Source: a virus | Length of the DNA: 47,686 nucleotides | IMG/VR virus record: IMGVR_UViG_3300020451_000311 | Span: 1-47,686 of that record | Direction: 5' to 3' (one strand) | Part shown: one piece after another, positions 3,801-47,686 of the stretch | Position numbering within the stretch: the stretch's first letter is position 1 | Layout of the letters: every line of letters begins with the position of its first letter | Translations under genes and position numbers: made by a program | The notes under the pieces: generated by a model | Seen by the model: only the letters and a program-made list of their open reading frames with translations | Told to the model about the DNA's origin: nothing | Databases searched by the model: none

Positions 3801-4189
3801 AACAAGCCGCTATGGCAACTCTAAATATGATGGGCTTTGGATTAGGAATGGCAAATGGTGGAGTTATACCAATGGCAAAAGGAGGATATACAAGAGGATA
3901 TCGTTCTGGAGGTATAGCAACATCACCAACTGTTTTAGTAGGAGAAGGCAGATATAACGAAGCAGTAGTACCTTTACCAGATGGAAGAAGTATTCCAGTT
4001 GAGATGCATGGTGGTGGAAATAGTGTTATTGTAAATGTAAATGTAAACGGACAAGGCACACAAGTAACAGGTAATGGTGGACCGAATATGGAAGCCATGG
4101 GTAAAGCAATAGCAGCACTTGTACAGAAAGAAATGGTAGAACAACAAAGACCAGGCGGAGTATTAAGTCCGTATGGAGGTACTTCATAA
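899..4189 (+). CDS. Tail tape measure protein, lambda gpH-like
   Basis: At 1096 aa this is the expected length ruler of a long tail. The N-terminus is Lys/Ala-rich and helical. Hydrophobic segments lie near residues 81-101, 288-311, 494-515 and 519-546, as in tape measure proteins that later enter the cell envelope. Long Glu/Lys/Gln-rich helical stretches fill residues 650-980. The C-terminal part from about residue 985 has the Gly-rich block with GGVIPMAKGG and LVGEGRYNEAVVPLPDGR, typical of lambda-family tape measures. It overlaps the next gene by one base. Tail length is set by this protein, so its size suggests a tail of roughly lambda scale or a little longer. Confidence 0.95.
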   Translation: MAGKKIEVASFVMKLSDGNTIEMYAKKSKKAKKAADDMGDSHKKASEHVHTTDRRLKGASQQSSGASKNFSKMAQGIQGGLVPAYATLAATLFAVGAVFRAFQNAADFQALQASQEAYAASTGIMLGTVSKSLQEATGHQLDLQKAGASAAIMIAKGFNVDQINEVARASVAASQALGRNFEDTFNRIVQGTTKAEPELLDELGITLRLETATQKYADAVGKNRDELTTFERSQAVLNETLRQAEENFGAVAGRVPVNAFNKLGAVMTDLIMSFQQIMAPLANFFANILGNNVLAAVAALGLFASSILSQVLPSMGEMQASLNEFENKHNSAYEAAKTDLEEYRQAQNRAKQSLQQQQASGAAGVKSGAAAMTKAGSKSPVLERFGSGEATGTDKANLDKALRSAENQYRKHGKIKRGIFKNTDIAIVRSMKTSFDQMNVKQQTFGMQMKAGMKKISLGWKVMTVKMKMGFQTTMAASGRAMLSFSNFANKVMGKAGVIGILIMLFQVIMGMVNNIDKVIVSVFRGVGHFIDFILAGVVKLLEMIRGVARLMGLSGDAVQSAIDAVNSLDMSDTLGEIGQGFADATGATEFGTSRREGAAANDRFNQSLDLTKEKMEGINNLIAEQTKREKEGKELSAMKQAEFQANAVSTSGILGEISRLQSMATATKSDAAGGGALYTKEQIAEQKRAVQGLFDELKKIVPGLEDFGDVMSMDSDALNTFILQTTNAGQGLKTLDQVLESTMSRRAESAKGLASSYFDKEVKDMKIAQNALSAMTDQTGMVSDAEATKLATILGVSEDVIKGSSIKDVLAMVNAQVTQTEGIITAQRQLVMSQLGTKLSTAKLGSRKDAAAVKMKEQIKIVELTNAEQAIKNKITELEDKGKTLKGEQKIANDELIKQEDLRLKIAQEQSKAYKDSTTTAFKLQQTFATGLEKMFADIATGAATAKEAFKSLATLVLQQLVKIAAQQAAMATLNMMGFGLGMANGGVIPMAKGGYTRGYRSGGIATSPTVLVGEGRYNEAVVPLPDGRSIPVEMHGGGNSVIVNVNVNGQGTQVTGNGGPNMEAMGKAIAALVQKEMVEQQRPGGVLSPYGGTS

Positions 4190-4572
4190 TGGCAATAGGA
4201 TTCACGACATCATCTAGTTTTGGAAGTAGAGCAGTAGTACCTGATAAAGGTATGTCCGCACCATATAAACCAAGAGTTCTTGTAGCAAAGTTTGGAGATG
4301 GATATGAACAAAGAGTTAGAGATGGAATAAATAATGTTCAAAGAACTTTCTCAGTAACTTTTAAAAATCAACCAAAAGCAATCATTGACGACATTGCAGG
4401 ATACTTCAATAGTCTTGGTGGAGTCGATAACTTTAGTTTCACTATACCTGACTCAAACGAATCAGGTAGCGAAGAAACATTAAAAGTAGTATGCGATACG
4501 TGGAGCAAAACTTATTCATACGACGAATTTTATAATTTAACAGCAACACTAAGAGAAGTATTCGAGTCATGA
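4189..4572 (+). CDS. Minor tail protein, lambda gpM-like
   Basis: This 127-aa protein has the length and pattern of the lambda gpM family of tail tip proteins (FGDGYEQR near residue 37, then a series of beta strands). It follows the tape measure gene and overlaps the gpL-like gene by 4 nt, the lambda order H-M-L. It is expected to be part of the tail tip complex that starts tube polymerisation. Nothing looks truncated. Confidence 0.85.
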
Positions 4573-14950: not shown

Positions 14951-14990
14951 AAAAATAGTTCTTGACATCACCTCATATTTTTGGTATAAT
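14951..14990 (+). promoter_or_regulatory. Sigma70-type promoter of the fibre operon (shared phage promoter element)
   Basis: Perfect TTGACA (14962-14967) and TATAAT (14985-14990) are 17 bp apart, with an extended -10 (TGG before TATAAT). Upstream lies AAAAATAGTTC (14951-14961). The 17-mer AAAAATAGTTCTTGACA recurs exactly at two minus strand promoters in this window. Transcription would start near 14997, giving a leader of about 18 nt with AGGAG before the ATG at 15015. This would separate expression of the fibre operon from the tail operon. Confidence 0.92.
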
Positions 14991-15014
14991 TTAGCATATA
15001 GGAGTAAAAGTTAA

Positions 15015-20911: not shown

Positions 20912-23689
20912 ATGGGTATATTTGTAAATGATGGCGGAACACTCCGCACCATCAGGTTTATCGCTGTTAATGACGGTGGTACACTTAGACGAGTAAACGA
21001 AGTGTTCGTAAACAATGGCGGCTCTCTTGAAGGGCCGTTCAGTGCTGTGCATGAAACAAGTAGGTCTACAAATACAGAAACAACTTACATCTCAGGAACA
21101 CAAGAAACCGCTTTTGCAACAAATACAACCTTTGATACAAATAGGGCAACAGATACTGTAACTACATTTAACACTAGTAGAGCAACAGATACAACTATTA
21201 CTACAACAAGAGCAACTACAACTGTATTCAATACAACTACAACTTTTAATACTACTACTACATTTAATACATCAAAGAATACTACAACTACATTTACTAC
21301 AACAACAAATTATACGACAACTACAACCTATAATACAACTAGGTCTACAACTACAACTTTCACTACTACAACTCTGTTCAATACAGAAACAGCGTATCAA
21401 ACAACTAGGTCTACAACTACGACTTTTGATTCTAATACTACCTACACAACCACAACTACTTTTGATACAACTAGGTCAACTACAACAACCTTTGAAACTA
21501 CAACTGCGTATAATACAACTACGACTTTTAATACTACAAGGTCTACAACTACTACGTTTACTACTACTACAAATTATACAACAACTACAACCTATAATAC
21601 AACTAGGTCTACTACAACTACGTTTAATACAACAACAAATTATACAACAACAACGACTTTTGAAACAGATAGGTCTACAACTACTTCATATAATACAACC
21701 ACAACCTATACGACTTCGTATGACACGACGATAACAACAACTAGGAATACTGGTTTTACAAATAGTACAAATACAAGTAGAGGAACAGCAACAAGTAGAA
21801 GTACAACAACTGCGTATGATACAACTACTGCTTACACAGATAGTACAAACACAAGTAGGTCTACAAATACAAGTAGAAATACAAGTACTGCTTACGAAGA
21901 TAATACAAATACTTCTAGGTCTACAAATACAAGCAGGAACACAAGTACAGCATATACAGATAATACAAATACTTCAAGAGGCACAAATACTTCTAGAAAT
22001 ACTGGGTTTACAAACTCTACATCTTATGGTACAAGTAGAAATACTAATACTTCTAGAAATACTAATACAAGTAGGTCAACAGCATATACAGATAATACAG
22101 GATTTACAAACTCTACAAATACAAGTAGAGGCACGGCTTACACAGATAATACAGGATTTACAAACTCTACAAATACAAGTAGGAGTACTTCTTACAATAC
22201 TTCTAGAAATACTAATACTTCTAGGAACACAAACACAAGTAGAAATACAACTAGGTCAACAAGTTATAACACTTCATTTACAAATGTAACATTTACTTTG
22301 TCCACAGAGGAAGAAGAAAGCGGAACCTTTGTAAATACAGAAACATTTAATACAAACACAAGTAGGTCTACAACTAGAAATACTTCGTATAGTACATCAT
22401 TTACAAACTCAACAGGGTTTACAAACTCTACATCATATGCTACAAGTAGAAATACAGGATTTACAAATAATACAAATACTTCAAGAGGTACAAATACGAG
22501 TAGGAATACAGGATTTACAAATAATACAAATACTGCTAGAAGTACAAACACATCTAGAAATACAGGATTTACAAATTCAACAGGGTTTACAAACTCCACT
22601 GGATATAACTCTACAAGAAACACTAATACAAGTAGGTCAACAGCGTATACAGATAATACAGGATTTACAAACTCTACAAATACAGCAAGAAGCACAGCGA
22701 CTGCTTATGTAGATAATACAGGATTTACTAATGTAACTAATACAAGTAGAAGCACAGCAACTGCTTATGTAGATAACACAGGATTTACAAACAATACAAA
22801 TACAAGTAGAGCAACAGGTACAAGTAGAAGTACTACAACTGCTTATACTACAACTACTGCTTACACAGATAATACAAGTACAACTAGAGGTACATCTTAC
22901 GAAACAGCGTATGGTACAAGTAGAAGTTCTTCAAGAGCCACAGGTACAAGTAGAGCAACTACAACTACATTTAATACTTCTAGTGGAACTGCTACAAGTA
23001 GAGGAACTGCTACAAGTAAAAATACTACAACTACATTTAATACAAATACTACAACAGCAACAAGTAGAGGTACAGAAACAAGTAAAAATACTACAACCAC
23101 ATTTAATACTACTCGTTCCTCAGGTACAAGTAGAGCGACAGATACAACTCAATCTACTACAACAACTTATGCTACAACTCTTGGAACACTTACAACAAGA
23201 GCAACAGCGACAAGTAAATCTACAACGACTGCATTTGATACTACAATTACAACAGGTACTTCTGCGTCAACAGATACAACTAAATCTACTACAACTACAT
23301 TTAATACCAATACTACAACAGGTACAAGTAGAGGCACAGATACAAGTAGAACAACTTCTACAACATTTAATACTACACAAACTACTGCTACAACTCAATC
23401 TACAGCAACAAGCAAATCTACTACAACTACATTTGAAACTGCATTTGCTACAACAACTACATTTGAAACAACTAGAACGGAAGAAGATGGTACAACTACA
23501 ACATTTGAAACCACAAAATCAACAGACACAACAATTACAACTGATCATCTAACAGTATTTGCTACTGCAACAGATACAGTTGTTTACGAAAGAATAACAG
23601 CCAGTTCAGCAGGAACAATATTCGATACTGAAGTATCAAGCGCCTCCGATTTAGGGGCTTCCTTCTGGGACGGCTCACAATGGAGTTAA
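20912..23689 (+). CDS. Extremely Thr/Asn/Ser/Arg-rich repeat protein, mucin-like putative virion fibre
   Basis: This is a 925-aa protein preceded by GAGGAG. Residues 1-45 hold three copies of a VNDGGTLR-type unit, a short module seen in phage tail proteins. From about residue 50 to 880 the sequence is almost only Thr, Asn, Ser and Arg, with regularly placed Phe/Tyr and some Asp/Gly/Ala. Early units follow a 22-residue pattern of aromatics (spacing 6-6-10); later units have a 20-residue period (AYTDNTNTSRGTNTSRNT). A single acidic break (TEEEESG) occurs near residue 470. The array has no Cys, Pro, Trp or Met. Residues 885-925 form a normal C-terminal domain ending ASFWDGSQWS. It contains a great many N-x-T/S and Thr sites. 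A capsule-type glycosyltransferase-like gene follows in the same operon. Confidence 0.8.
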   Translation: MGIFVNDGGTLRTIRFIAVNDGGTLRRVNEVFVNNGGSLEGPFSAVHETSRSTNTETTYISGTQETAFATNTTFDTNRATDTVTTFNTSRATDTTITTTRATTTVFNTTTTFNTTTTFNTSKNTTTTFTTTTNYTTTTTYNTTRSTTTTFTTTTLFNTETAYQTTRSTTTTFDSNTTYTTTTTFDTTRSTTTTFETTTAYNTTTTFNTTRSTTTTFTTTTNYTTTTTYNTTRSTTTTFNTTTNYTTTTTFETDRSTTTSYNTTTTYTTSYDTTITTTRNTGFTNSTNTSRGTATSRSTTTAYDTTTAYTDSTNTSRSTNTSRNTSTAYEDNTNTSRSTNTSRNTSTAYTDNTNTSRGTNTSRNTGFTNSTSYGTSRNTNTSRNTNTSRSTAYTDNTGFTNSTNTSRGTAYTDNTGFTNSTNTSRSTSYNTSRNTNTSRNTNTSRNTTRSTSYNTSFTNVTFTLSTEEEESGTFVNTETFNTNTSRSTTRNTSYSTSFTNSTGFTNSTSYATSRNTGFTNNTNTSRGTNTSRNTGFTNNTNTARSTNTSRNTGFTNSTGFTNSTGYNSTRNTNTSRSTAYTDNTGFTNSTNTARSTATAYVDNTGFTNVTNTSRSTATAYVDNTGFTNNTNTSRATGTSRSTTTAYTTTTAYTDNTSTTRGTSYETAYGTSRSSSRATGTSRATTTTFNTSSGTATSRGTATSKNTTTTFNTNTTTATSRGTETSKNTTTTFNTTRSSGTSRATDTTQSTTTTYATTLGTLTTRATATSKSTTTAFDTTITTGTSASTDTTKSTTTTFNTNTTTGTSRGTDTSRTTSTTFNTTQTTATTQSTATSKSTTTTFETAFATTTTFETTRTEEDGTTTTFETTKSTDTTITTDHLTVFATATDTVVYERITASSAGTIFDTEVSSASDLGASFWDGSQWS
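21055..23560 (+). repeat. Long low-complexity coding array (ACA/ACT-rich) of the Thr-rich protein
   Basis: About 2.5 kb of short, diverged tandem units such as AATACAAGTAGA and TTTACAAACTCTACA. Reading frame and repeat phase are kept throughout the + frame, while the other frames carry long Leu/Gln/Ile-rich open stretches that are by-products of the repeats. Such an array is likely to expand and contract by recombination or slippage. Confidence 0.85.
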
Positions 23690-36239: not shown

Positions 36240-36617
36240 CTACTCGTATAAAAAATGAACCTTTCCATCTTCTATTCTAAGTAGTCTGTTTTTGGTTATA
36301 GTGTCCTCCGATATCGGCAAATACAAGAGGTCTAGTGTGGAGTCTTTTGTTTGCAAGTACATTGGATAGTTACGAAATGAAGCGACTCCTACATATTCCG
36401 CAACTTCTTTATCGCTAAATGCCCTGCCTTTTGTTAGTAAATCTTCTGGATTTAGCAGAAATGACTTACCACCGTAATTGTATCGATAAAATTTAAAAGA
36501 TTTATCTTTGTAATTTTTAGGGGGTAACTTGTGAGTGATTATTCTAAGTATCGATATTACATCACCGACATTCCCTTTGCTCACTCGAAGTATCTTTTCC
36601 CAATCAAACAATATCAT
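36240..36617 (-). CDS. Unknown protein, first gene after an internal promoter
   Basis: This protein has up to 125 aa and no recognised family; it contains NYGGKSFLLNPEDLL and a short C-terminal RIEDGKVHFLYE. The ATG at 36617 lies only 2 nt downstream of the -10 box of the promoter at 36620-36660, so a transcript from that promoter would start inside or after this codon. On that transcript, translation must begin at a later codon, either TTG 36611 (near-leaderless) or GTG 36584 (preceded by GGGAAAAG; 114 aa). Read-through from the upstream operon would still allow ATG 36617. Confidence 0.7.
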   Translation of the reverse strand: MILFDWEKILRVSKGNVGDVISILRIITHKLPPKNYKDKSFKFYRYNYGGKSFLLNPEDLLTKGRAFSDKEVAEYVGVASFRNYPMYLQTKDSTLDLLYLPISEDTITKNRLLRIEDGKVHFLYE

Positions 36618-36619
36618 AT

Positions 36620-36660
36620 ATTATAACAAATTTTTAACCTGCTGTCAAGAACTATTTTTC
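36620..36660 (-). promoter_or_regulatory. Sigma70-type promoter on the minus strand (shared phage element)
   Basis: Read on the minus strand: the element GAAAAATAGTTC, TTGACA (36643-36648), a 17-bp spacer, and TATAAT (36620-36625) with an extended -10 (TGT before it). The 17-mer AAAAATAGTTCTTGACA is identical to that at the + strand promoter near 14.96 kb. It would drive the single-strand DNA-binding protein, recombination and nucleotide metabolism genes down to about 25.7 kb. Confidence 0.93.
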
Positions 36661-36680
36661 GGCGGTTTGTAGTTCGGAAT

Positions 36681-44093: not shown

Positions 44094-46347
44094 AGAATTT
44101 TTCCCATTTACCCATGCTGTAATCTTCTCCTATTTCAAAGTCACAACCAACGGGAGCACCAGGTATACTACAACCTCTATCTCTTTGTATGCACTCTTTT
44201 AGTTTTGCACTATATTCATCTACTAAATCTTCTCTAACTTCTGCAAGTATTGAGTCATGAACTAGAGCAAATATTCTAGCGTCCATGCCAGACTTTACAA
44301 TATACTTCTGCATATCGATACCACCCAATAGGTTGATGTCTGACGCAACTGATTGAACTAGGAAGTTGATTCCTGACCTAACTTCATGCGACGCGATTGC
44401 TTTGTCTTTGGATTTAGCATTTTCTAATCTTCTCTTTCTACCAAACAAACTGTATATATGACCATTCATTTTTATACTCTCTTGCGATACAGTCAACCAC
44501 TTCTTTAGTCCTCCAAAGGAATCAAAGTAATCTCTAATGACTGTCTGTGCCTCTCTTACTGAAAACTCTTTACCACTATCTTTTGTTACCTGCCAACTAA
44601 TTTTACTTGGGCCAGCACCATACATAATACCGAATGTTACGGCTTTTGCTTGTTGACGCTTATCTGAATAATACTTATCAACATCTTCTACTTCGCATGG
44701 AAGTTTGAAAACTTGTTTAGCAATTGTACTATGGAAGTTACCTCCACTCTTAAATACATTCTGTAAGTTACTATCTTGTGCCAAAACTGCGGCAACATAC
44801 ACCTCTGCAGTAGTCAAGTCCATTGCAACAATCTTATAACCAGGTCTTGCCTTTATACAACCTTTTACGGTTGGGTTATCTCTTGGTAACTGTTGCATGT
44901 TGAGTTTACCACTAGAGGATAATCTACCAGAGGTCGTGCCATGTAGATTGAAGTTTGTACGCAATCTACTATCCATGTCCAAGTTAGGTATAATTTTGTC
45001 CAAATATGTACTCTTTATCTTAACTTTCTGTCGAATCTCTAAAATCAACGCAGGCACAGGGTGTTCTTCTGCAAGTTGTCCTAATACTTCTGCATCTGTG
45101 GAATCAGCCCCAGTTCCTGTTTTCTTACCCGTTGGGGTCAAGTTTAAACAATCAAACAATACTTCTCTAAGTTGAAGTGTACTGTTTGGATTGAACGGTG
45201 AGCCTTTCTGTTTTTCATACTGTACAATCTCTGGAAACTCATATAGTTTATCTATTGCTTTCTGTATATCTACTGTCATGACTGCCTGTGCACTTCTTAA
45301 TCTTTCTTCATCAAAAGGTACACCATTTTCTTCTATCTCTTTCAAGAATGTACAACCTTCAAGTAGTATGTTCTCATATACCCAATTAAGTTTTTTGTTT
45401 GTGATGATTGCTTTCTTCATCTTTTCATACAACATAAATGTTACTACTGCGTCCATTGCAGCATAGTCTTTCATAATCTCAAATGGAATCAAATCATAAC
45501 TGAAAGATTCTTTGAGTATGCCATGTTGTTTACGATAGTTGTCTATAAAGTCACCAAGTGGTCTTTCATAATCGCCATATGGTGTATGTTTTAGTGCAAG
45601 TTGTTTTAGACCATGAGTACCAGGCTGCTCATCAAACATATAGTGCATGAGCATAGTATCTTCATATCTAGGAAACTTGAAACCAAAATGATACTCAAAC
45701 CATTTCATATCAAACTTGGCATTGTGAAATACAACTATCTTCTTATCAAAGAGTTGTTGCATGAGTGTTTCTGCTCTATCATCTATACACTCACAATCTA
45801 CATACACTCCGTGTTCTGATTTGTATGACATAGAGAAACCTAGCATATATCCATCTCTGCAATATAATGCAGATGTCTCGGAGTCAAGTGCTATGTATTC
45901 ATTGTCATGATTAAGTGCATCGTCTAGATACACAAGTAAGTCCGCAGTTTGTGTTATACCATAGCAATCTTCTTCAGGAAGTTTCTCCTGTTTCAAATCA
46001 CCACTAATGTATCCTTTGATACTCTCTACTGCTTCTTCAAACGGTTTGACTGCGTCAGGTTTGAATCTAATAATTGAAGGGTTCATGAGAGGTAAAAACT
46101 TATCGTCTACTAACTTACCATTGTAAGCAGTTATAGAACTAAGTTTAGTGTACATTTTAAATGCCTCACTTCCAATCAGTATAACCCAATCAAATTCGTC
46201 AATATCTATTTCGATATCAACATCTCTTTTTAAAATTTTCTTTTTACTACTGTCTGAACACAACGCAAAACGGTCAAAGTCAAACTCAAACCATTTGTGA
46301 AAGTCCGTGCTAGACGGTGTTGTTTCTATTAATGCTATTTTATCCAT
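44077..46347 (-). CDS. Family A DNA polymerase with 3'-5' exonuclease domain
   Basis: The exonuclease motifs of this 756-aa protein are ALDSETS (Asp155, Glu157), FHNAKFD (Asn209, Asp213) and YAAMDAV near 296. The polymerase motifs are A: AMDLTTAEVY (Asp510, Glu515); B: RQQAKAVTFGIMYG (Arg564, Lys568, Phe572, Tyr576); C: VHDS (His697, Asp698). Motif A is unusual, since the common DYSQIELR reads DLTTAEVY and its Arg is replaced by Tyr517. No 5'-nuclease domain is fused; the separate flap endonuclease supplies it. Phe572 corresponds to E. coli Phe762. This is the probable replicative polymerase of the phage. Confidence 0.96.
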   Translation of the reverse strand: MDKIALIETTPSSTDFHKWFEFDFDRFALCSDSSKKKILKRDVDIEIDIDEFDWVILIGSEAFKMYTKLSSITAYNGKLVDDKFLPLMNPSIIRFKPDAVKPFEEAVESIKGYISGDLKQEKLPEEDCYGITQTADLLVYLDDALNHDNEYIALDSETSALYCRDGYMLGFSMSYKSEHGVYVDCECIDDRAETLMQQLFDKKIVVFHNAKFDMKWFEYHFGFKFPRYEDTMLMHYMFDEQPGTHGLKQLALKHTPYGDYERPLGDFIDNYRKQHGILKESFSYDLIPFEIMKDYAAMDAVVTFMLYEKMKKAIITNKKLNWVYENILLEGCTFLKEIEENGVPFDEERLRSAQAVMTVDIQKAIDKLYEFPEIVQYEKQKGSPFNPNSTLQLREVLFDCLNLTPTGKKTGTGADSTDAEVLGQLAEEHPVPALILEIRQKVKIKSTYLDKIIPNLDMDSRLRTNFNLHGTTSGRLSSSGKLNMQQLPRDNPTVKGCIKARPGYKIVAMDLTTAEVYVAAVLAQDSNLQNVFKSGGNFHSTIAKQVFKLPCEVEDVDKYYSDKRQQAKAVTFGIMYGAGPSKISWQVTKDSGKEFSVREAQTVIRDYFDSFGGLKKWLTVSQESIKMNGHIYSLFGRKRRLENAKSKDKAIASHEVRSGINFLVQSVASDINLLGGIDMQKYIVKSGMDARIFALVHDSILAEVREDLVDEYSAKLKECIQRDRGCSIPGAPVGCDFEIGEDYSMGKWEKFYGNKV

Positions 46348-47179
46348 ATAATCTCTTGCTAATTCTGTTTACTTGGTCTTTTACTAAGCCGCCTGGGTCT
46401 GCACCCTCTGGTAATGTTACTATCTGTACTGACATACCTAACTCTTCAGCAGTTCCTTTTACTTTCTCAGCGGCTGTTCTACCTGCTTCATCGCCATCAT
46501 ACATAATATCAATACCACTTACTCCTTGCATTTTGAGTAGTGATAACTTTACCCAATTCATTTGTTGTGTGCCAAAACAACACACAGTATTCTTGAGACC
46601 TTTATCCCAAAGGTTGAGAGCATCGAATATGCCCTCCACCAATATAACTCTGTTCTGGATAGGTTTTACCTTTGCTGGACAGAATGGCATTTCTACACCA
46701 CTTGGGTAGATATAATACTTATCAGACCCCATTCCGTTTATCAGCCTACCTATCAAGGCAACCGTTTTCCCTGTAATATCTCTAATCGGGAAGATGATAC
46801 GACCTTCGAACTTAGGAACGTTCCATGTGAACGCGTCCCATATATTGAGAGTTTCCTCACTAATGTTCCGAAAGCCGCCACCTTTCCATGCTAGTCTATC
46901 CTTAGGGAGTTGGATACCGACAGTTTGACTTCTTGTTTTTTCTACTTTCTCTTTTAACTTGTGTAATCTTACTTCTAGTGGACTTGATGGTGCACCAAAG
47001 TGTGTGAATAGATTGCCCTTGAATCCGCACGAGAAACAATGCATAATGCCTGTGATACGGTCAACCCTCAAACTAGGGTTTGTGTCGTCATGTTCAGGAT
47101 TCAAACATAAAATCTTAGCGTCTTTACCACTAAGTTCGTAATGTATTCCCTTTTCTCTTAATAAATCTTCAGCAATCAT
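46340..47179 (-). CDS. DNA primase, DnaG-like (zinc finger plus Toprim)
   Basis: In this 279-aa protein the CHC2-type zinc finger uses Cys25, His30, Cys48 and Cys51; the Toprim domain has VEGIFDAL (Glu182) and MYDGDEAGR (Asp228, Asp230). There is no fused helicase domain, unlike T7 gp4, so a separate replicative helicase is expected outside the window. The ATG (47179) is only about 10 nt after the -10 box of the promoter at 47190-47230, so this mRNA probably has almost no leader. It overlaps the polymerase gene by 8 nt. Confidence 0.94.
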   Translation of the reverse strand: MIAEDLLREKGIHYELSGKDAKILCLNPEHDDTNPSLRVDRITGIMHCFSCGFKGNLFTHFGAPSSPLEVRLHKLKEKVEKTRSQTVGIQLPKDRLAWKGGGFRNISEETLNIWDAFTWNVPKFEGRIIFPIRDITGKTVALIGRLINGMGSDKYYIYPSGVEMPFCPAKVKPIQNRVILVEGIFDALNLWDKGLKNTVCCFGTQQMNWVKLSLLKMQGVSGIDIMYDGDEAGRTAAEKVKGTAEELGMSVQIVTLPEGADPGGLVKDQVNRISKRLYG

Positions 47180-47189
47180 AATTATATAT

Positions 47190-47230
47190 ATTATAACAAA
47201 AATTTAAGTTTTTGTCAAGAACTATTTTTC
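47190..47230 (-). promoter_or_regulatory. Sigma70-type promoter on the minus strand, upstream of primase (shared phage element)
   Basis: Read on the minus strand: GAAAAATAGTTC, TTGACA (47213-47218), a 17-bp spacer, and TATAAT (47190-47195) with an extended -10 (TGT). The same 18 bases (GAAAAATAGTTCTTGACA) occur at the other minus strand promoter. The element begins within the last codons of the DapF-like frame. Transcription would start near 47183 and cover primase, polymerase and the genes down to at least the helicase. Confidence 0.93.
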
Positions 47231-47583
47231 TTCTCCATAATACTCTACTTGTGAAAGACGAGTAGATAATACTACTGTTGTTTCAGTAAACTCAACACGA
47301 TATCCTCCGCCTCGAGATATAACTGTTACAGGGTGTTTGCCCTTAGACCACCAGTATGCCGCAGCAACAGTTGCTGAACCACAACTTGGTACTTGTCCTA
47401 CGCCTTTCTCTTTTGTATTTATTTCTATTACATCATCAGATACTCTCATTATCTGTGATTCGTTTATATCATGGTCAGTCCATTCATCTACTATCCAATG
47501 AATGATAGTCCTATCTCCTTGATAGCACTCTACAAAACCATGTTCCCAATCAGCAGTTGGTAATTTTTCTTCTAATGAAACTA
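47222..47583 (-). pseudogene. DapF (diaminopimelate epimerase)-like C-terminal fragment
   Basis: The frame is open from inside the tRNA gene to the stop at 47222. Its last 75 residues fit the C-terminal half of diaminopimelate epimerase: TKEKGVGQVPSCGSATVAAAY parallels the E-R-G-x-G-E-T-x-x-C-G active site (Glu and Cys kept), then SRGGGYRVEF parallels the 'PGG-x-l-x-v' part. The N-terminal domain with the first catalytic cysteine is missing. No ATG, GTG or TTG occurs between the tRNA end and ATG 47449, so the gene is 5'-truncated, or starts at 47449 (75 aa) or a rare codon. It may be a decayed acquired host gene. Confidence 0.5.
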
Positions 47584-47659
47584 TGGTGGAGCATGGGAGA
47601 CTCGAACTCCCGACCTCCTGCGTGCAAAGCAGGCGTTCTCCCAACTGAACTAATGCCCC
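47584..47659 (-). tRNA. tRNA-Ala (anticodon UGC)
   Basis: A 76-nt cloverleaf reads on the minus strand. The acceptor stem GGGGCAT pairs with ATGCTCC and has the G3-U70 pair that identifies alanine tRNAs. The anticodon stem is CCTGC/GCAGG with loop TTTGCAC (anticodon TGC). The T arm is GGGAG/CTCCC with loop TTCGAGT. Discriminator A and CCA are encoded. It reads GCA, a frequent codon in the Ala-rich fibre genes of this phage. No attachment site or integrase is visible. Confidence 0.96.
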
Positions 47660-47686
47660 GTTATAACAAGCAGGTGCTGTACTGCC

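Follow-up and report, generated by a model that had tools for sequence, protein, structure and literature searches.

Does a transfer RNA (tRNA) gene that meets a protein-coding frame mark the edge of that frame, or can it be part of it? The question is raised by one end of the IMG/VR virus record IMGVR_UViG_3300020451_000311, which was analysed in its entirety as a window of 47,686 bases and whose end cuts through a gene for a DapF-like protein. The sequence-only reading had seen here a DapF-like fragment directly abutting a tRNA-Ala(UGC) gene, and had taken it either for a remnant of host DNA picked up with the tRNA or for a half-size protein with a new role. We consider it probable (roughly 0.77) that a phage gene of the DapF superfamily contains, nested in its reading frame, a complete tRNA-Ala(UGC) gene that is apparently functional, with the tRNA and the protein as mutually exclusive products.

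ARAGORN placed a tRNA-Ala with anticodon TGC and an encoded CCA end at 47584-47659 on the minus strand, as the sequence-only reading had located it and as the sole tRNA in the window, and its sequence, identical in the related contig L008, scored 68.8 bits against Rfam RF00005 (gathering threshold 29). The DapF-like open reading frame (ORF) lies on the same strand (47222-47686; 154 visible codons and a TAG stop) and, rather than abutting the tRNA gene, stays open through all 76 of its bases up to the window's final base. Codons 53-77 of this frame (GALVQLGERLLCTQEVGSSSLPCST) and one base of codon 78 come from the tRNA. Just before it stands the end of an N-terminal half, GSTAPACYN (47660-47686), in which the codon at 47666-47668 is presumed to encode the first catalytic Cys, and 3' of it lie 120 codons of a C-terminal half (47222-47583), which ends at 47222 and carries the DapF active-site pattern as read before, the presumed second catalytic Cys being found in GQVPSCGSA (codon 47381-47383). 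The N-terminal domain reported as missing is thus already partly visible inside the window.

The remainder of the gene was read from longer contigs. When viral contigs were scanned with the C-terminal piece, five loci came up, of which L004, L005, L006 and L008, from four IMG metagenome numbers, matched the full piece at 91-100% identity, and the fifth, L007, begins after the tRNA and is therefore uninformative on nesting. In all four longer contigs the frame is intact and the tRNA is enclosed by an ORF that spans 199 codons from stop to stop, or 197 from a TTG start codon; codons 1-43, beyond the end of the window, come from these contigs, which also provide the start codon that had seemed to be lacking. 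In order, the gene holds the first catalytic-Cys motif (FNVDGSTAPACYN), the tRNA and the segment bearing the second Cys. In L008 and L005, the two contigs inspected for it, AGGAGA stands ahead of the start region GGAAACACAA, an arrangement that recurs among homologues without the tRNA; in L008 the nested ORF overlaps the end of an upstream gene for a 161-residue protein by 40 bases.

Exact removal of the 76 nucleotides of the tRNA shifts the frame and brings a stop at once in L008 or after three codons in L005, so that the two halves share a frame only when the tRNA between them is translated. A splicing-like removal that restores the frame was rejected on the same result. To control for frames that are open by chance, we compared 16 distinct tRNA contexts taken from the fetched loci, a sample whose members are not independent, as many of the contigs are related: the four of the nested lineage sit within ORFs of 199 codons (154 where the window end cuts the gene), and no ORF around the other 12 exceeds 47 codons. 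Searching for Cys-Tyr/Phe-Asn codons followed by the start of a tRNA-Ala matched L004, L005, L006 and L008 only, and no further nested example was found by this junction pattern, by family patterns in viral contigs or in genome contigs.

The tRNA-bearing contigs fall into two lineages, one comprising the window, L004 and L008, the other L005, L006 and, by its C-terminal part, L007, and their comparison allowed us to follow selection on the ORF, as the sequence-only reading had proposed. L008 and L005 differ by 35 substitutions in 591 nucleotides, 22 of them at third positions, and all 35 lie in the 515 nucleotides outside the tRNA, the 76 of the tRNA having none (P 0.005 at the flanking rate). 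By the NG86 method, nonsynonymous (dN) and synonymous (dS) divergence over both halves were 0.038 and 0.20, a dN/dS of about 0.19 with no stop. The C-terminal half gave dN 0.040 and dS 0.19, and the N-terminal half, without the bases that it shares with the upstream gene, gave dN 0.022 and dS 0.34. When the 32 substitutions that fall neither in the overlap nor in the tRNA were placed at random in 5000 trials, none had as few changed codons as the 13 observed and 86% contained a stop; taken by half, P was 0.013 for the N-terminal and 0.003 for the C-terminal one. Judged from the sequences, the DapF-like ORF is thus under constraint, though a weaker one than the neighbouring DNA primase gene (46340-47179, minus strand; 279 residues), which lies outside the nested gene and served as anchor of the locus (dN 0.0015, dS 0.12).

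These figures bear directly on the possibility that the tRNA landed in a dispensable gene for such a short DapF-like protein (mini-DapF), that only the tRNA is used, and that the frame is open by luck over two decaying halves. We regard this as improbable, although several observations fit it: a random insertion has a one-in-three chance of being in phase, the tRNA is invariant and the rest of the ORF varies, and the ORF evolves faster than the primase gene. The mini-DapF is probably dispensable, since among the relatives collected with the primase gene (the best 80 of 485 loci) a family profile found it at 16 loci and gave no hit at the other 64, several of which have little upstream sequence. 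Its loss could also be harmless downstream, as a promoter-like TTGACA-17-TATAAT (47190-47218, minus strand) follows directly after the ORF stop and ahead of the primase, whose start is 42 nucleotides past that stop; at L008:6367-6395 the site matches in 12 of 12 positions. However, decay agrees poorly with the low dN/dS between two tRNA-bearing lineages, with the failure of all 5000 random placements to be as conserved, with the absence of stops and with the retained catalytic residues.

Separate translation of the pieces on either side of the tRNA, to assemble as a two-chain DapF fold, is very unlikely. Both halves are conserved and the tRNA itself contains one TTG codon (codon 58), but the 5' piece has no stop, no ATG, GTG or TTG occurs in the 3' piece before codon 123, and two independent chains would not need the phase between the halves to be kept.

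Equally hard to sustain is the idea that the tRNA has been exapted as coding sequence only and no longer acts as a tRNA. Eight relatives without the nested tRNA keep a different tRNA-Ala upstream, and by that token the nested copy might be an extra one in phages whose remaining genes are only partly in view. Against this, the 76 nucleotides are unchanged between lineages in which synonymous changes are frequent elsewhere, and the stems, the UGC anticodon, the G3-U70 pair (the alanine identity element) and the CCA end are all intact. The cloverleaf is the minimum-energy fold of the 76 nucleotides alone, and ARAGORN found no second tRNA in the window or in the fetched parts of L004, L005, L006 and L008. 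The codon read by the nested tRNA, GCA, makes up 571 of 912 alanine codons (63%) in 27 ORFs chosen from the window, which provides a reason for keeping the tRNA.

A fragment of host DNA or an assembly chimera, for which only the ending of the window inside the gene would speak, can be dismissed, as the same junction occurs in four contigs with four metagenome numbers, homologues without the tRNA sit at the same phage locus, and one pattern scan of genome contigs gave no relative. The suggested host remnant likewise does not fit a fixed phage locus and purifying selection. The tRNA-free set comprises 27 contigs that show the start of the homologue, some being nearly identical, and includes the 105-kb contig L103; two further contigs, L024 and L088, hold the C-terminal part only and are uninformative on the nested tRNA. 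The gene for the 161-residue protein lies directly upstream of the homologue in 27 of the 27, and the primase starts less than 1 kb downstream in 22, slightly farther in L064, and was not seen in L114, L117, L118 and L119, where the fetched stretch stops soon after the homologue. None of the 26 contigs that cover the site has a tRNA inside the homologue (the 27th, L118, ends within the site). AGGAGA precedes the start in 24 of the 27, and the start codon is ATG or GTG in every one; TTG was found in four of the four tRNA-bearing contigs with a visible start, a count that covers one lineage and hence one event and proves nothing alone.

Many of the relatives have a short AELAEHGK-like stretch in place of the tRNA codons, and L064-like ones a longer stretch. 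In L096 (about 4163-4228) an unrelated insert of about 22 residues (about 66 bases), in which ARAGORN found no tRNA, occupies the site; the insert is also present in L097 and L119, and its beginning is seen in L118. The site thus tolerates insertions.

Eight of the 27 tRNA-free contigs carry a separate tRNA-Ala(UGC) 0.46-1.04 kb upstream, which differs in sequence from the nested tRNA and, in the three tested, would carry a stop in the frame of the latter. It overlaps or touches the stop of the helicase gene in L023 and L096, and in L023 (2915-2992) it shares one base with that stop codon. Simple relocation of this upstream tRNA as the source of the nested one is not supported, given the differing sequences. 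A degenerate tRNA pattern had no match in genome contigs, a 48-nucleotide pattern matched only the four known contigs among viral contigs, and the top-listed phage tRNAs, from Vibrio phages, were 85.7% identical to the nested tRNA. L014, L016-L019 and L021 carry a tRNA-Ala and tRNA-Asp pair upstream of the primase at loci with no mini-DapF hit.

The kinship with DapF claimed from the C-terminal pattern was borne out by profile, Pfam-level and structural matches, and no different family came forward. Alone, the visible C-terminal piece matches Pfam PF01678 weakly (E=0.0059; 17.1 bits, cut-off 34.7) and the nested protein reaches 24 bits against the same cut-off, but a profile built from nine homologues matched DapF in PDB at E=1.1e-10, mostly through the C-terminal part. 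Both catalytic-Cys motifs of the superfamily are present, although the first, aligned with DapF NADGSLAEMCGNG in this profile match, is weak by itself (4 bits). The two Cys residues (C50 and C145) and 23 other columns are invariant across 15 homologues. On the equivalog model TIGR00652 (cut-off 114.65 bits) the nested protein scored 32.3 bits and five family members 32-48 bits, and we therefore name the protein DapF-like and not DapF. Its predicted structure is a compact DapF fold (mean predicted local distance difference test (pLDDT) 83.3, predicted template modelling score 0.84), in which helix 51-65 follows the first Cys, residues 53-65 of it being encoded by the tRNA. The model (residues 1-197) matched 5m47 over the whole chain (Z 19.6, root-mean-square deviation 3.2, 187 residues aligned) and, in Foldseek, 5h2g (E 2.1e-9), and the PDB matches listed comprise DapF and related racemase, epimerase and PhzF folds. 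The tRNA-free protein of L103, modelled at pLDDT 93.5, is predicted to have a shorter helix (48-54) in the same place.

Among viral proteins the match is less clear. A viral structure library gave no match at E 0.001 or below, and in PHROGs nothing came up but one borderline family, its function unknown (E 0.019 and 0.048). When named phages were searched by tblastn, the nested protein drew 13 weak records (best E 0.03). Each match falls on the stretch that the tRNA encodes and is labelled tRNA where annotated, save one with no feature; with a tRNA-free homologue as query, two weak hits came back (E 0.08). No paper on a phage DapF was found in the literature search. E. coli DapF is described as binding RppH (PMC4227774), and any link between the nested protein and RppH is speculation.

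From this arrangement we infer that ribosomes translate across the tRNA, that the tRNA is processed in vivo, that the two products exclude each other and that the protein is enzymatically active. Ribosomes reading straight through the tRNA sequence would make the epimerase-like protein, by the sole route available, and the tRNA-encoded residues would supply the helix after the first catalytic Cys and a floppy loop. In transcripts that adopt the cloverleaf, RNase P and 3'-end nucleases would excise the tRNA and destroy the message, leaving a 5' piece with no stop and a 3' piece with no start. As neither piece has both, protein would come from uncut transcripts and tRNA from cut ones. Cutting need not silence the primase, given the perfect promoter match directly after the ORF stop, which presumably gives that gene its own transcription start. 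For a separate tRNA promoter in the N-terminal half there was one 9/12 match (L008:5857-5884), and 15 were found in the region against 9.5 expected, a result that speaks neither for nor against such a promoter. The TTG start is expected to lower translation compared with the ATG or GTG of the tRNA-free contigs. A further step, which we put forward tentatively and would not favour, is a viral RNA switch in which the enzyme is active, the tRNA-encoded helix works, and the ratio of tRNA to protein is set by ribosome loading at the TTG before RNase P acts.

Several results weigh against nesting with two working products. The tRNA fold is not far outside its shuffles (z -1.46); with 30-nucleotide flanks the cloverleaf is still the minimum-energy fold in L008, at a frequency of 0.004 and not as the centroid, and a different fold has the lowest energy in L005. 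The Pfam and NCBIfam matches stay below curated cut-offs, the tRNA-encoded residues 65-75 have pLDDT under 50, and five models of the protein varied from 48 to 83. The evidence for selection is a single comparison of two lineages, codons 79-122 alone are not significant (P=0.069), and phase would be kept by chance in about one case in three. Finally, RNase P might process the transcript efficiently enough to leave next to no protein.

If the nesting holds as proposed, 76 bases meet two demands, those of a canonical tRNA fold and identity and those of a helix in a predicted enzyme core. With tRNA-free homologues and two diverged tRNA-bearing lineages at hand, the competition between translation and tRNA maturation is directly testable. 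Such genes can be split in two when a tRNA is taken for a gene boundary, as in the sequence-only reading.

The closest precedent found is selC (tRNA-Sec), nested at the 3' end of selB in Alphaproteobacteria and described by its author as the first case of a tRNA nested within a bacterial ORF (Mukai 2021, PMC8124441). The two cases share the proposed logic of exclusive fates, with a nonstop mRNA after tRNA processing, but in selB the tRNA, whose length is mostly a multiple of three, encodes a C-terminal extension, whereas here a viral, 76-nucleotide elongator tRNA is internal, encodes part of a predicted catalytic domain and has conserved coding sequence on both sides. The phage case would thus extend the selB precedent to an elongator tRNA located internally in an enzyme gene. 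That case aside, no phage or mid-gene nested tRNA was found by title in the open-access literature. PMC8124441 also cites a tRNA-Lys in the mitochondrial cox1 gene of Armadillidium vulgare, likewise a whole tRNA within a protein-coding gene in direct orientation, there in a compact animal mitochondrial genome. Compared with DapF itself (PF01678, TIGR00652; PDB 5m47, 5h2g), the phage proteins share the fold, the two catalytic-Cys motifs and several invariant residues, but those measured have 164-205 residues against about 275. Rickettsia palindromic elements, repeated selfish elements in protein genes, are likewise structured and inserted in frame, but they are selfish repeats and not a working tRNA gene.

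The wider gene content is that of a phage. The helicase, an NAD-dependent ligase, a D5-like regulator, the primase and a polymerase match phage families, the primase best matching T5-like phages (40% identity), and a lambda-J-like tail fibre gene is accompanied by other siphovirus-like tail genes. Beside the tail-fibre gene lies a 925-codon ORF (20912-23689) with long repeat arrays at 66-base spacing. A promoter-like block, AAAAATAGTTCTTGACA..TATAAT, occurs in three copies at distant genes of the window (14951-14993, plus strand; 36601-36667 and 47187-47229, minus strand). In L008 (3-1237), a carbamoyltransferase-like gene (phrog_1601) is followed by a frame that resembles a peptide deformylase.
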